This document shows, piece after piece, positions 16,914 to 62,125 of a stretch of DNA of 64,000 nt. This DNA is from Collinsella tanakaei (GTDB lineage Bacteria > Actinomycetota > Coriobacteriia > Coriobacteriales > Coriobacteriaceae), in NCBI RefSeq assembly GCF_016900375.1, contig NZ_JACJKB010000003.1, forward strand, positions 124,001 to 188,000, written 5' to 3'. The notes under the pieces were generated by a model, which saw nothing but the letters and a program-made list of their open reading frames with translations, was not told the DNA's origin and searched no databases. Both the position numbers and the translations under genes were made by a program. Positions within the stretch are counted from its first letter, which is position 1, and every line of letters starts with the position of its first letter.

Positions 16914-17573
16914 ATGTCACCTGCGCAGATTGAGTTCTATCGCCGCCTCGCCAAGGGCCTGGCGCTTCAATTCGGCCCCAATTGCGAGATCGTCGTCCAC
17001 GATCTGGAGGCTGAAGATCTCGACCATTCCATCGTCGCGATCGAAAACGGCCACGTATCGGGCCGCCATCTGGGCGATGGCCCCAGCCACGTCGTCCTCG
17101 AGGCCCTGCACGACGACGAGCGGGGAAAGATCGAGGACCGTCCCCCCTACCTCACCAAAACGGCCGACGGCAAGCTGCTGAAGTCCAGCACCATCTTCAT
17201 CCGCGATGACGCGGGCTGGCCCTGCGGCATCCTGGCCATCAACTTCGACATCACGATCATGACGGCGTTTTCCAGCACGCTGTCGCTGCTTATCGGCACC
17301 GGCGAGCAAAACGAGCCCGAACCCATCGCCAAGAACATCGGCGATCTGCTCGACGACCTGTTCAGCGAGTGCGAGCAGGTCGTCGGCAAGCCCGCGGCCC
17401 TCATGACCAAGGAGGAGCGCGTGCGCGCCATCGGCTACCTGGACCGCCGCGGAGCGTTTCTCATCAGCAAGTCGAGCCAGAAGGCCTGCGAGTTCTTCGG
17501 TATATCCAAGTACAGCTTCTACAGCTATCTGGACGAGGCGAAGGCGCTCGCCGACAGCCAGCGGGACGGCTAA
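16914..17573 (+). CDS. YheO-type PAS/HTH transcriptional regulator A
   Basis: A 219-residue DNA-binding regulator. The N-terminal YheO-like PAS domain (residues ~1-120) has the family motifs CEIVVHDLE, HSIVAIENGHVSGR and LKSSTIFIRDD with GILAINFD. The C-terminal ~50 residues are a helix-turn-helix with LDRRGAFLISKSSQKACEFF then SKYSFYSYLDEA. Members commonly sit beside purine and amino-acid catabolic genes. It diverges from ygeX across 278 bases containing two matching inverted repeats. ATG 16914 has AAGGAGG upstream. Two homologues lie at 56023 and 56716. Confidence 0.87.
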   Translation: MSPAQIEFYRRLAKGLALQFGPNCEIVVHDLEAEDLDHSIVAIENGHVSGRHLGDGPSHVVLEALHDDERGKIEDRPPYLTKTADGKLLKSSTIFIRDDAGWPCGILAINFDITIMTAFSSTLSLLIGTGEQNEPEPIAKNIGDLLDDLFSECEQVVGKPAALMTKEERVRAIGYLDRRGAFLISKSSQKACEFFGISKYSFYSYLDEAKALADSQRDG

Positions 17574-17590
17574 TCCGAACCCATCAACTC

Positions 17591-17637
17591 AAACGGGAGG
17601 CGCGGCGGCTCACGCAGAGCCGCCGCGCCTCCCGTTT
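17591..17637. terminator. Bidirectional terminator, 20-bp perfect stem
   Basis: A perfect 20-base inverted repeat (17591-17610 with 17618-17637, 7-base loop) with AAA/TTT outer ends. It lies between the convergent regulator (+) and the Nif11-like gene (-) and can terminate both. Confidence 0.85.
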
Positions 17638-17696: not shown

Positions 17697-17975
17697 TTAC
17701 AGCATTTCGTCGAGGAACTTGTCGATGACCTCGCCCCAGGCGATGCCGCCGGTCACGCCCGCGAGAGCATTGTCGTCGATCTCGCCCGCCGCGCCGCCGC
17801 TCGCCTGCTGGACGAGCTCGACGATCTTGCCCGCAACCCCGGAGTCGAGCTCGATACCGAGGGAGCCCGCCGCATCGACGAGCGCCGCCGCATCCATCGA
17901 AGCGATGCCCTCGAGCACTTCCGGATGCTCCTTCAGAGCGGCCAGTGCCTGCTTGATATCAACCTGAGCTGCCAT
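17697..17975 (-). CDS. Nif11-like small protein with double-glycine leader
   Basis: A 92-residue protein with strong ribosome binding site (AGGAGG, five bases before ATG 17975). Residues 6-43 resemble a Nif11-type leader (IKQALAALKEHPEVLEG, then AAGSLGIELD). Residues 66-77 (IDDNALAGVTGG) resemble a double-glycine cleavage site, leaving a 15-residue tail IAWGEVIDKFLDEML. That is the plan of a ribosomally made peptide precursor. No modifying enzyme, peptidase or dedicated ABC exporter is seen nearby, although two CmpB-like membrane proteins follow on the other strand. It may be an orphan precursor or a small protein of another function. Confidence 0.6.
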   Translation of the reverse strand: MAAQVDIKQALAALKEHPEVLEGIASMDAAALVDAAGSLGIELDSGVAGKIVELVQQASGGAAGEIDDNALAGVTGGIAWGEVIDKFLDEML

Positions 17976-18214
17976 GATGTCCTCCTTACCGCGCTGACGG
18001 GCATTGCCCGAGACGCGCAACCGGCGGGCTCCTCCCCGCCGTCACCGTTCACTTTGGAGTATAAGGGCAAGCCGGGCGCGGCGGAACATTCAGCCTCCAA
18101 TCAGCCCGATGTGGCACCAATTGATTCCGGCTCCGCCGCCCTGTGCGCGCACGCCCCCTATAATTGGTCGAGATGCGCCACCCGACGGCGCCCGCGAACG
18201 CATAGGAGACGACA

Positions 18215-19282
18215 GTGCAGACGGACTATTCAGATACCCATCGGCTCGGATTTCTCAGGATCATCCAGGTCCTTTTGGCCTTCAACATCATGATCACGCT
18301 GGCGGTCACGGTCTTTTGGATCAAAGACAGCCACGCGATGGAGTACTCCGATATCCTCGACTACGTGAACCTCGTGTTCAACGGCATCTTCTTCTGGCTC
18401 ATCTGGCGCCGCGCGAGCATCACCCGCGCCGTCATCATCGGCTGCTGCGCGTTCAACATCGTGTCGGGCAGCATCTACAACATGGTGACCGGCACCTTCA
18501 ACCCGATCGACCAGGTGATCCTCTCGATCGTCGACATCGTCCTTATCGCCTATTTCGCCACGTCGAAGCGCGTAAGGGCCCAGCTCGTCGAGCCGTTCAC
18601 CCTCGAGTCGACCCGCGCCGACGGCCAGCGCGAGGCCGAGTTCTACCGTCCGCGCACCTGGGGCTTCTGGCGCAACCTCATCATGTACTTCTGCGTGTTC
18701 AGCGTGGTCGGCCACTGGCTCGAGGCGGGCTACTGCACCTTTATCCGCTTTGGCATCCTGCCCGGTATCTACGACCCCAACTCGCAGATCTGGAGCGACT
18801 GGCTCTATCCCTTCCCCGTCTACGGCTTCGGCGCCGTCGCCTGCGTGCTTTTGCTCTACCCGCTCAAGACGCTGCTGCAGAAGCACCTGCGCGGAACGGT
18901 GGCGCCGCTCCTTATCAGCTTCGTCGCCAACGGCCTCGTGTGCACGGGCATCGAGCTCGTCATGGGCCTCATGCTCAACCAGCCCCTGCCCGACGGCAGC
19001 CTCCCGCTGTGGGACTACCGCGACATGTTCTGCAATTTCATGGGTCAAGTCTGCCTGCAAAACGGCGTGGCGTTCGGTCTCGTGGCCACGCTCATGACCT
19101 GGGTGATCTACCCCGGCTTGGAGACCCTTTTCTCGCGGCTCTCATCGGATGCCATGAACACGCTGTTCGTCGCCGTCGCGGTCGGCTTCGCGGTGCTGGT
19201 CTTCCTGTACTTCATCAACGTCGTGGCGCCCGGCATCTCCAGCGGCGGCAGCACCGACATCTTCATGGGCCTCCTTGACTGA
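18215..19282 (+). CDS. Polytopic membrane protein with CmpB-like domain
   Basis: A 355-residue membrane protein. The first ~115 residues form about four helices. From about residue 148 the sequence (FWRNLIMYFCVFSVVGHWLE ...) resembles the 'putative ABC-transporter type IV' (CmpB) family, with four or more further helices. Neither half carries an ATPase motif. GTG 18215 is the start, with AGGAGA seven bases upstream. The downstream gene encodes a shorter paralog. Transport role is only suggested by the family name. Confidence 0.65.
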   Translation: MQTDYSDTHRLGFLRIIQVLLAFNIMITLAVTVFWIKDSHAMEYSDILDYVNLVFNGIFFWLIWRRASITRAVIIGCCAFNIVSGSIYNMVTGTFNPIDQVILSIVDIVLIAYFATSKRVRAQLVEPFTLESTRADGQREAEFYRPRTWGFWRNLIMYFCVFSVVGHWLEAGYCTFIRFGILPGIYDPNSQIWSDWLYPFPVYGFGAVACVLLLYPLKTLLQKHLRGTVAPLLISFVANGLVCTGIELVMGLMLNQPLPDGSLPLWDYRDMFCNFMGQVCLQNGVAFGLVATLMTWVIYPGLETLFSRLSSDAMNTLFVAVAVGFAVLVFLYFINVVAPGISSGGSTDIFMGLLD

Positions 19283-19328
19283 CAAGGCTGTCCGCGCAAG
19301 CAACTCGATGCCCGGAAAGGAGATCCCG

Positions 19329-19946
19329 TTGGACCTGCGATCGACCGTCATCGAACGGCATATCGCGCGCCTGAAGACCTGGGAGTTCTGGCGCAACCAC
19401 GCGCTGTACTTCTGCGTCTACAGCGTGGTGTGCCACTGGCTCGAGATCCCCTACAGCCTGTTCATGGAGGAGAACTTCGGCATCGTGGGCGAGTTCTCCG
19501 TCATCTGGGAATACCCGTTCTACCCGTATCTCGCCTACGGCTTCGCCGTGCTGATTGTCGGCGTGTTCCTCATTCCCCTGCGGGATTGGATCTGGGCCCA
19601 AAGCGTCTCGCGCGGGCATGCCGCCGCGACGTTTTACGTGCTTGCGCTCATCGCCTGCATCGTGATGGAGGCGGGCTGCGGGATGATCATCAACGCACCC
19701 GACGCGAACGGCGTCTACCCGCTCTGGGACAACTCCGACCTGCCGCTCAACATCCTGGGGCAGGCGTGGCTGCCGAACGACATCCTCTTCGCCCTGCTTG
19801 CCAGCGTATACGTCTGGGTGCTGTACCCCGCCTCCGAGCAGTCGCTCGCCCGCATGCCGCGCCGTGCCGCCGACATCCTGACCGTCGTGGTCGTCATCGC
19901 CTTCGTCGCATTGTGCATCTGGCAGTTCTCGACCGTCCCGATGTAG
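19329..19946 (+). CDS. CmpB-like membrane protein, shorter paralog
   Basis: About 205 residues with four or five transmembrane helices, aligning with the C-terminal half of the preceding protein (FWRNHALYFCVYSVVCHWLE; then YPFYPYLAYGFAV). The best start is TTG 19329, which has AAAGGAG six bases upstream. An upstream TTG at 19275 would overlap the previous stop and is the alternative. The pair probably forms a two-gene operon. Function unknown. Confidence 0.6.
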   Translation: MDLRSTVIERHIARLKTWEFWRNHALYFCVYSVVCHWLEIPYSLFMEENFGIVGEFSVIWEYPFYPYLAYGFAVLIVGVFLIPLRDWIWAQSVSRGHAAATFYVLALIACIVMEAGCGMIINAPDANGVYPLWDNSDLPLNILGQAWLPNDILFALLASVYVWVLYPASEQSLARMPRRAADILTVVVVIAFVALCIWQFSTVPM

Positions 19947-21121: not shown

Positions 21122-21341
21122 GCGTCCGCCCTTCCTCTTCGCCGTCTGCCGTGCGCAAATGCCAACGGGTCCATTGTAGCCGCGCTCCGCGCAGGGCACC
21201 GCACGTCGTACGGCCCCGTAACGAAACCGAAAGCGCTGCCTATATGTCCCCTCGCTGTTGACCTGCAGCATGCGCCGCGCACATAGGCTATGGCTATCAA
21301 ACAAAAGCGTGCTGCAGATTGCAGCAGGACGGGAGCGGCAC

Positions 21342-56022: not shown

Positions 56023-56691
56023 ATGAACAAGACGGTCGAGGGCTACCTGCCCTTCTTCAATTTCCTGAGCACCATCGTCGGCGGCAACACCGAGGTCGTC
56101 CTGCACGACTTCACCGACCTGTCACACTCCATCGTCGCGCTCCACAACGGGCACGTCTCGGGCCGCAAGCTGGGCGCTCCCGCCACGGACTTCGCGCTCA
56201 AGATGATCAGCAGCGATATCCCCGCCGATCAGGACCATACGGATATCTACCAGTCGCACAGCACGTCCGGCAGGCCGCTGCGCTCCTCGACGCTCTTCAT
56301 CCGCGAGGACGGCAAGCTCGTGGGCATGCTCTGCGTCAACACCGACACCTCGATCATCGTCAAGCTCCAGTCGCTCGTCGACACCATCGTCGAGACGCTT
56401 CCCCCTGGAACCAACGACAATCAGGGCGAGCAGGGGCGCCATGCGGGCGCCATCGGCGAAAACCTGACCGCCTCCGTCGACGACCTCGTGGAGAAGACCG
56501 TCAGCGAGTTCGCCACCGCGCGGGACAAGACGGCCTCGGAGCTTTCGCCCAACGAGCGCCTCGAGCTCGTCAAGATGCTCCAGGACGACGGCGTCTTCCT
56601 GCTCAAGGGTGCGGTCACCGTCGTCGCCCAGTCGCTGGAGATCTCAGAGCCGAGCGTCTACCGCTACCTGCAGAAGGTGCGCCGGGGCTAA
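56023..56691 (+). CDS. YheO-type PAS/HTH transcriptional regulator B
   Basis: A 222-residue homologue of the regulator at 16914. The PAS part has TEVVLHDFTDLSHSIVALHNGHVSGR and RSSTLFIREDGKLVGMLCVNTD. The C-terminal HTH has LKGAVTVVAQSLEISEPSVYRYLQK. It diverges from xdhA and is followed by a convergent third homologue. ATG 56023 has GGGAG upstream. Likely controls the xdh genes. Confidence 0.86.
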   Translation: MNKTVEGYLPFFNFLSTIVGGNTEVVLHDFTDLSHSIVALHNGHVSGRKLGAPATDFALKMISSDIPADQDHTDIYQSHSTSGRPLRSSTLFIREDGKLVGMLCVNTDTSIIVKLQSLVDTIVETLPPGTNDNQGEQGRHAGAIGENLTASVDDLVEKTVSEFATARDKTASELSPNERLELVKMLQDDGVFLLKGAVTVVAQSLEISEPSVYRYLQKVRRG

Positions 56692-56715: not shown

Positions 56716-57423
56716 CTATTCGCTCGGCCCCTCGCCCGTGCGCGAGCGGCGGATGCTGCGCAGGCCGCGATAGATCGTAGGCTCCGAGATGCCGAGCAGG
56801 CAGGCGATCTCGCCCACCGCGCCCTTGATGCGAAAGACCCCCTGGGAATCCAGGACGCTCAGCAGGCGCAGGCGCTCGTCGGCGGGGATCTTCGTTCCCT
56901 CGAAGCCCAGAAGCCGGCAGGCGTCCTTGAGGGCGGCCTCCACCGAATCGCCCGAGGCGCTCATGGTGCGCTCGGATGCAACGGAGTCGAACTGGTCGCG
57001 CACGGCGCCCAGACGCTGCTGGCGCTGGCCGTCGGCGCCGCCGGGAATATAGGACTCAATGAGCCCGTGCAGGGCGTCCTCAAGTGTGCGGAAGGCGGCG
57101 ATATCGCGGTTGATGCTCAAAAAGCCGACGATGCGATCGTCCTCGCGAATGGGATAGACGCCCGAATAGAGCGTGCGGCCGTCGAGCGATTTGGTGGGAA
57201 AGCCCGTGCGATGCCCCTCGAGCTCCTCAGGATGCTCAAGGAGCTCCGTCAGGTAATCCGAGAGCGGCGCACCCTCGCGACGGCCCGACACATACGGATG
57301 CACGAGCTTGATGAGCGAATGCGACGGGTCCTCCAGGTCGTGCAGGGCGATCTCGGTCTGGGCGCCGAACATATCGCCCAGAAAAACGCACAGGGGGATG
57401 TAGCGGGATACCGTCTGGTTCAT
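56716..57423 (-). CDS. YheO-type PAS/HTH transcriptional regulator C
   Basis: A 235-residue member of the same family: TEIALHDLEDPSHSLIKLVHPYVSGR and LYSGVYPIREDDRIVGFLSINRD in the PAS part, then IKGAVGEIACLLGISEPTIYRGLRSIRR in the HTH. Its end faces regulator B with 24 bases between. ATG 57423 has GAAGGG upstream; the start a little earlier at an overlapping ATG would hide that site. Target unknown, perhaps the RidA gene or the xdh genes. Confidence 0.85.
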   Translation of the reverse strand: MNQTVSRYIPLCVFLGDMFGAQTEIALHDLEDPSHSLIKLVHPYVSGRREGAPLSDYLTELLEHPEELEGHRTGFPTKSLDGRTLYSGVYPIREDDRIVGFLSINRDIAAFRTLEDALHGLIESYIPGGADGQRQQRLGAVRDQFDSVASERTMSASGDSVEAALKDACRLLGFEGTKIPADERLRLLSVLDSQGVFRIKGAVGEIACLLGISEPTIYRGLRSIRRSRTGEGPSE

Positions 57424-61803: not shown

Positions 61804-61827
61804 AGAGCCCGGGGGCAACCGGGCTCT
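61804..61827 (+). terminator. Terminator-like hairpin after the small ORF
   Basis: Perfect 9-base stem AGAGCCCGG / CCGGGCTCT with a GGGCAA loop, directly after the stop of the 40-residue ORF. Only a short T pair follows. Confidence 0.65.
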
Positions 61828-62125
61828 TGAATCAATGACCTGCGCCGCCCGCGACCTGTAACCACTAGGCGGGCTTCGCTGGCACTATCATTCTACCCTA
61901 TCTTTCGGCGTCCACACGGCAGTCACGATTCCCGGATCCCGTGCCTCCACCGCGTCGGAGGAATTCGACCTTGGACCCTTCTCCTCTAAGTCGATCCACC
62001 CCGCACGAATGCATGTCCGCCTTATCTGCGAGCTCAGCCCGGCATAGCCTCCTGGGCCACGCTCCACCCCGCAAACCCTGCGTTCTGCAACAATAGACAG
62101 AAGAACCAAGAGCAGCGGAGGGGCA

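Follow-up and report, generated by a model that had tools for sequence, protein, structure and literature searches.

A probable divergent Nif11-led peptide precursor in Collinsella tanakaei and a candidate exporter encoded on another contig

Where a Nif11-type leader is found, lanthionine, azole or radical-SAM chemistry is usually expected. The locus described here raises the question of what such a leader does when it precedes a core of only 15 residues and no enzyme for this chemistry is encoded beside it. The window, which is the whole 64,000-nucleotide stretch of the genome of the gut bacterium Collinsella tanakaei that was analyzed, contains a 92-residue open reading frame (ORF) that a sequence-only reading had described as an orphan Nif11-like peptide precursor. 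That interpretation as a whole is supported by our analysis and was largely right; the points on which it has to be modified are the terminator, the assignment of the leader and the word orphan.

The precursor gene and its genomic neighborhood

The coordinates given for the ORF were exact; the strand, which had been left out, is minus, and the plus-strand reading of the same interval is an unrelated non-ATG frame of no relevance (Table 1). Among the 43 genomes of the genus Collinsella one syntenic ortholog was found, in genome G029, with 61% identity; it lies between the same two neighbors, the YheO-like regulator and the CmpB gene. The ribosome binding site, which had been called strong, reads AAGGAGG, and AAGGAGG likewise precedes this ortholog. 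Comparison of the two genes (NG86) gave dN 0.26 and dS 0.91 overall (dN/dS 0.28), with dN 0.26 and dS 1.02 for the leader and dN 0.25 and dS 0.46 for the core, and the substitutions were distributed over the codon positions as 18/24/39. The overall dN and dS and the distribution over codon positions support the coding status of the ORF, which we regard as confirmed to be a real gene.

The gene was also said to have its own strong terminator. A strong, perfect hairpin does lie downstream (-49 to -50 kcal/mol, z -9 to -10; not listed by a simple terminator scan), but it is not the gene's own, because it lies where two convergent genes meet and can fold on either strand. The statement that no RiPP enzymes are adjacent holds: the flanks are the YheO-like HTH gene and the CmpB-type pair, followed by metabolic genes, and among ten other genes between 11130 and 26557 Pfam assigned nine to metabolic, transport or housekeeping families and left one without a match. 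Exporter and radical-SAM queries gave no match among the 511 ORFs of the window. The YheO-like regulator is present in 29 of the 43 genus genomes and is therefore not specific to the peptide. At the 15 regulator loci inspected, the peptide and CmpB genes adjoined only in the source genome (G000) and G029, and in G040 the regulator is directly followed by an ADP-ribosylglycohydrolase gene, which in the window starts at 21258, beyond the CmpB pair; for these reasons the peptide and CmpB genes appear to have been inserted into a conserved locus. Elsewhere in the window, two ORFs arranged tail to tail (56023-56691, plus; 56716-57423, minus) are 31% and 27% identical to the regulator, respectively, and a Collinsella-1 RNA (RF01700, 43.3 bits) is found at 61806-61959 on the minus strand.

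Table 1. Positions of the features at the precursor locus (window coordinates) and of CmpB homologs at other loci (locus coordinates)
Feature	Position	Strand	Remarks
Precursor gene, 92 aa	17697..17975	minus	ATG at 17975, stop 17699-17697
Leader, residues 1-77, Nif11-like, MAAQVDIKQALAALKEHPEVLEGIASMDAAALVDAAGSLGIELDSGVAGKIVELVQQASGGAAGEIDDNALAGVTGG	17745..17975	minus	ends LAGVTGG; V-4, L-7, I-12
Core peptide IAWGEVIDKFLDEML, residues 78-92	17700..17744	minus	first 8 residues identical in ortholog
Ribosome binding site AAGGAGG	17981..17987	minus	direct reading; 5 nt before ATG
Bidirectional terminator-like hairpin	~17591..17637	both	21-22 bp perfect stem, between convergent genes
YheO-like PAS/HTH regulator	16914..17573	plus	convergent with precursor
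CmpB-type membrane protein CmpB1 (PF06541)	18215..19282	plus	divergent from precursor; same 2/43 genomes as peptide
Second CmpB-type membrane protein (PF06541)	19275..19946	plus	Pfam
CmpB homologs in or near NHLM exporter loci	L201 4776-7649; L202 11206-12603; L203 8241-10043		
Further CmpB homologs in or near NHLM exporter loci	L205 12159-13286; L206 10839-12284		

Relationship of the leader to Nif11 leaders

Nif11 precursors have been described as carrying a helical leader of about 70 residues with an acidic stretch and a [LIV]xxV[AT]GG motif (N11P, Haft et al. 2010, PMC2887384), and LahT binds Nif11-type leaders via hydrophobic residues at positions -4, -7 and -12 (PMC6363468). The cleavage-like LAGVTGG motif that had been pointed out is present, as NALAGVTGG at residues 69-77. 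A Gly-Gly site with hydrophobic residues at the pocket positions -4, -7 and -12 (V, L and I) was found in both orthologs, and the GG and IAWGEVID are kept in G029. Both this motif and the HMM result given below go beyond chance: among the 384 window ORFs of 40-150 aa, the precursor alone has the LahT-type motif (hydrophobic -12, -7 and -4, then GG) near its C-terminus. An AF2 model of the precursor (mean pLDDT 66) places leader helices at residues 7-15, 18-24, 29-38 and 45-59 and has low confidence in the GG stretch; Foldseek with this model (E<=0.001) and a PDB sequence search gave no match, and no relative was found in viral contigs.

The curated models did not recognize the precursor. Nothing credible was returned by Pfam, NCBIfam or PHROGs, and no Pfam or NCBIfam cut-off was passed, that of Nif11 included; TIGR03798 (cut-off 32.3 bits) gave no match at E<=10, and the gathering score of PF07862 was not reached in the Pfam scan. 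The best chance match, to MutH, was rejected (12.2 bits vs a cut-off of 229.9), and no unrelated globular family claims the precursor. We used a Nif11-leader HMM made from 27 Coriobacterial TIGR03798-positive leaders, from 34 loci; left out were L119 (no ORF), L110 (an ORF without a GG core), L105, L109, L124 and L125 (no GG by the pattern) and L129, where the match, in G022, sits in a 441-aa protein that was taken by eye for a homoserine dehydrogenase and for that reason was not counted as a precursor. On this HMM the precursor, which was the only one of the 511 window ORFs at E<0.05 (E 0.0055), scored 12.3 bits, a score reached by none of 4975 scored full shuffles (of 5000). Shuffling residues 1-65 only, with GG and core kept, matched the score in 18/2000 cases, and the score of residues 1-65 alone was matched by 90/2000 shuffles. 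The G029 ortholog scored 22.3 bits (0/4995 scored shuffles) and its leader without GG 15.2 bits (0/5000). Using hhalign, the profile of the ortholog pair (A1) aligned with the 27 leaders over query residues 6-77 (Prob 95.1%, E 3.1e-8), and with a second model, made of leaders of at least 60 residues, at 91.4%; on this second model 2 of 4996 scored shuffles reached the score of the precursor. Profile homology to Nif11 leaders was thus found with the ortholog pair as query and is marginal for the precursor alone.

The same pair profile finds peptides in G373 (E 7.4e-9) and G152 (E 7.1e-8), in which the GG is kept, the pocket positions -4, -7 and -12 are A, L and L, and VSWTKHL comes after the GG. 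Neither of the two outcomes that had been named as refuting the interpretation, an unrelated globular family or homologs without the GG, was observed. On TIGR03798 the two peptides reach 27-28 bits, less than its cut-off requires; on PF07862 the G152 peptide is above the cut-off (24.1 vs 23.8 bits). Many Collinsella genomes gave weak profile matches within long ORFs, and these were treated as chance. Scanning the genome contigs with the single precursor protein gave no match; a second scan, with A2, gave 5 loci. Two Lachnospiraceae MAGs hold further relatives, some of them with short Cys-free cores; one MAG has several consecutive Nif11-led ORFs (L152 7992-10029), among them one with the Cys-free core GIIDTIKRWVGSLFGR.

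Taken together, the profile-profile comparison and the intermediate sequences indicate that the leader is related to Nif11 leaders, with the caveat that the curated cut-offs (Nif11, TIGR03798) are missed; the description of the leader as Nif11-like can be kept in this sense. We do not file the precursor as a member of TIGR03798/PF07862, because the cut-offs were tried without success and the Cys/Ser/Thr-rich core of a Nif11-leader RiPP precursor was looked for and not found in IAWGEVIDKFLDEML. The weak Nif11 score of the precursor itself, the lack of a maturase and the narrow distribution (2/43 genomes) would also suit a small, non-exported helical protein containing a Nif11-like domain, or a relic in which the GG has gone out of use. 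We consider this improbable, since purifying selection is seen in the leader as well as in the core (dN 0.26 and 0.25, respectively), the GG and IAWGEVID are invariant and the protease-pocket residues are intact.

The core peptide and a candidate exporter encoded in trans

Direct reading gives IAWGEVIDKFLDEML as the 15-residue tail behind the GG, and it contains no Cys, Ser or Thr, as had been noted. Lanthionine or thiazole formation had been called unlikely; lanthionines and azoles are excluded by this composition, and LanM would be unable to modify the core through its usual reaction. Given a core without these residues and no maturase gene next to the precursor, a linear product is the most likely. 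We have not used an amphipathic-helix reading of the core as evidence: its hydrophobic moment (0.43) is not significantly above that of shuffles, of which 1096/20000 were as high, compared with 1682/20000 for the G029 ortholog and 12829/20000 for the G373 peptide. As the core helix of the AF2 model is also of low confidence, membrane activity is not claimed.

Trp- or Lys-centred cross-links made by radical-SAM enzymes need no Cys, and the four closest peptides all retain the Trp of the core. A search for paralogous precursors found three further Nif11-led precursors in the source genome near radical-SAM genes, one on contig C9 (47.8 bits) and two on C87 (33.4 bits, and 20.7 bits, below cut-off). 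The cores of all three contain Cys, and radical-SAM genes are the direct neighbors of two of them, the precursor on C9 and the one of 33.4 bits on C87. The loci that combine radical-SAM and Nif11-precursor genes in this genome lie at L139 9680-11464 and L138 7964-9900. G152 and G345, from another family of the order, have a relative of the C87 enzyme with 82-83% identity, a likeness that suggests recent transfer. These observations would allow the core to be modified in trans by one of the genome's radical-SAM enzymes and then exported: such genes neighbor the C9 and C87 precursors, an 82% identical gene exists in G152, and the Trp is conserved. We think it unlikely that this happens, given that those enzymes have Cys-containing precursors of their own next door and that the sequence following the Trp varies from one lineage to another. 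Moreover, the G029 match to the C87 enzyme lies in a frame of 275 aa and extends over only 176 residues, and at E<=1e-10 no homolog was found in G014 or in G373, an 86%-complete MAG that has both peptide and exporter. A radical-SAM gene of only 257 aa beside a Nif11 precursor on G029 contig C33 (L066 5046-5819) aligns with about the first 176 residues of the C87 enzyme and is possibly truncated or frameshifted.

A search for C39 peptidase transporters bears on the word orphan, which is correct locally and fails for the genome, where a C39 exporter is encoded on contig C35 (the window is on C13). Strong matches (E<1e-30) were found in 3 of the 43 genus genomes, namely the source genome, G029 and G014, which has two. 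The exporter ABC1 of the source genome scores 939.6 bits on TIGR03796 (cut-off 853.3), and its partner ABC2, which follows it, 716 bits on TIGR03797 (cut-off 709.4); the HlyD partner before ABC1, of 154 aa, scores 34.5 bits on TIGR03794, under the cut-off of 156.2. The best PDB match of the C39 domain is LahT (6mpz, E 5.5e-63, over 142 residues), with C31, H105 and D121 aligned to the LahT triad C27/H101/D117. The exporter is 85% identical in G029 and 72% in G152. Directly upstream of it (L053 6651-9383) are genes for a SpoIIE-like phosphatase, a STAS protein and an RsbW-like ATPase, which suggest partner-switch control of peptide export.

Both carriers of the peptide are among the three exporter carriers, and the peptide is in none of the other genus genomes. 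Simple arithmetic gives 3/903 for this by chance; because G000 and G029 are related, the co-occurrence is suggestive only and not independent evidence. G014 has its two exporters without a peptide of the precursor's kind, and no TIGR03798 match over the cut-off was found in it; it does contain a 66-aa ORF (L141 8042-8242) in which a short GG leader precedes a zinc-ribbon-like core, CxxC..CxxC. At the level of the class (396 genomes), TIGR03796 is over its cut-off in 54 genomes, and Nif11-leader matches (E<=1e-4) occur in 52, of which 44 also have the exporter; 8 genomes have the leader only, 10 the exporter only and 334 neither. In four of the leader-only genomes (G073, G241, G278 and G365) there are truncated or just-below-cut-off exporter matches. 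Nif11 precursors are described as occurring with NHLM exporters, Eggerthella lenta included (PMC2887384).

We therefore set out the reading that we hold to be probable, that of a divergent Nif11-led precursor that is cut after its GG and exported in trans. The helical leader would be recognized by the C39 peptidase of the NHLM-type ABC exporter on the other contig, the peptidase would cut after Gly76-Gly77, and the exporter ATPase would release the 15-mer IAWGEVIDKFLDEML outside, most likely as a linear peptide. The sequences show the ORF, the relationship of its leader, the conservation of GG and core, an exporter with its catalytic triad, and the co-occurrence; we infer that the exporter handles this peptide, that the peptide is unmodified and that it has a role outside, for which a signal or a class-II-like bacteriocin is favored. 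Points against this reading are the low Nif11 score of the precursor and its failure at the curated cut-offs, the two exporters of G014 without such a peptide, the existence of other candidate substrates for the exporter in the genome, the short HlyD partner far below its cut-off, and the modest pLDDT of the AF2 model, for which Foldseek gave no match.

CmpB-type genes and comparison with known systems

In other Coriobacteriia, homologs of CmpB1 lie within or close to NHLM exporter loci (Table 1), and several of these loci also have STAS and SpoIIE-like phosphatase genes. When all 78 exporter loci over the cut-off were compared with the 108 CmpB matches listed, at least 11 of the 78 had a listed CmpB within 12 kb, a count that is a lower bound; a CmpB match is present in 41 of the 54 exporter genomes. 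As a general genomic partner of the peptide CmpB was rejected, for adjacency fails at the 28 CmpB-homolog loci outside the genus, where no credible Nif11-led ORF was found within 1.5 kb and a single match (E 0.016) was spurious. In G296, a 66-aa Nif11-led ORF with the Cys-free core INPTAAIYQFVKRYLTKHFGN stands directly before a same-strand CmpB pair (L204 11385-13947), with an NHLM exporter about 7.5 kb away.

One could imagine a self-contained cassette in which the peptide works with the CmpB pair (as immunity, receptor or exporter) independently of the NHLM exporter. The 2/43 genomes that have the peptide are also those that have CmpB1, and the two genes share a divergent intergenic region of 239 bp; the HTH gene of G040 is directly followed by the ADP-ribosylglycohydrolase gene, and in G296 a Nif11-led ORF adjoins a CmpB pair. 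We rate such a cassette as very unlikely, however, in view of the 0/28 result outside the genus and of G373 and G152, in which the CmpB pair and the peptide are on different contigs. A wider and tentative proposal, improbable in our own estimate, is that Coriobacteriia NHLM exporters, under SpoIIE/STAS/RsbW-type control, secrete unmodified as well as modified Nif11-led peptides, with CmpB-type proteins (PF06541) as a dedicated receptor, immunity or accessory component; the peptide/CmpB pair of the window would then be a dispersed unit of this system. CmpB-type genes at Coriobacteriia NHLM exporter loci offer a testable context for a family of unknown role.

If the export reading of the precursor is true, a conserved member without Cys/Ser/Thr chemistry, without an adjacent maturase and with its exporter in trans would suggest that the main role of the leader is export recognition, and such peptides would escape genome mining by enzyme neighborhood. 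Export recognition has been argued to be the primary role of the leader in the related NHLP family (Haft et al., PMC2887384). Among the titles and opening abstracts searched, with subscription papers outside this scope, no Cys/Ser/Thr-free Nif11-led peptide of Coriobacteriia was found. The cores of Nif11 precursors are described as Cys/Ser/Gly-rich (PMC2887384), and those of E. lenta have 50-59 residues (PMC4289311). The precursor of the window resembles the TIGR03798/PF07862 precursors in its long helical leader, acidic stretch and cleavage motif, and differs from them in falling below the cut-offs, in its core composition and in having no adjacent modification or transport genes. The exporter, in turn, is like NHLM exporters and LahT in passing TIGR03796 and TIGR03797 and in its aligned C39 domain with the conserved triad, and unlike them in its distance from the precursor, its short HlyD and the phosphatase/STAS/RsbW-like trio before it.

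Two other systems invite comparison. Prochlorosin-type precursors are dispersed and are served by one enzyme in trans; the leader-directed processing proposed here would similarly use machinery encoded elsewhere, although the shared machine would be an exporter and lanthionines are impossible in this core. In unmodified bacteriocins of class II (the double-glycine type) and in peptide pheromones, a linear core follows a GG leader that is cut by a C39 ABC exporter. The window precursor, with its putative linear core behind a GG leader for a C39 ABC exporter, is like these, and is unlike them in that its leader is of the long Nif11 type and no immunity or response gene was identified. The best reading is that the precursor would work like a Nif11-led, NHLM-exported precursor and be an unusual yet recognizable relative of a known peptide class.
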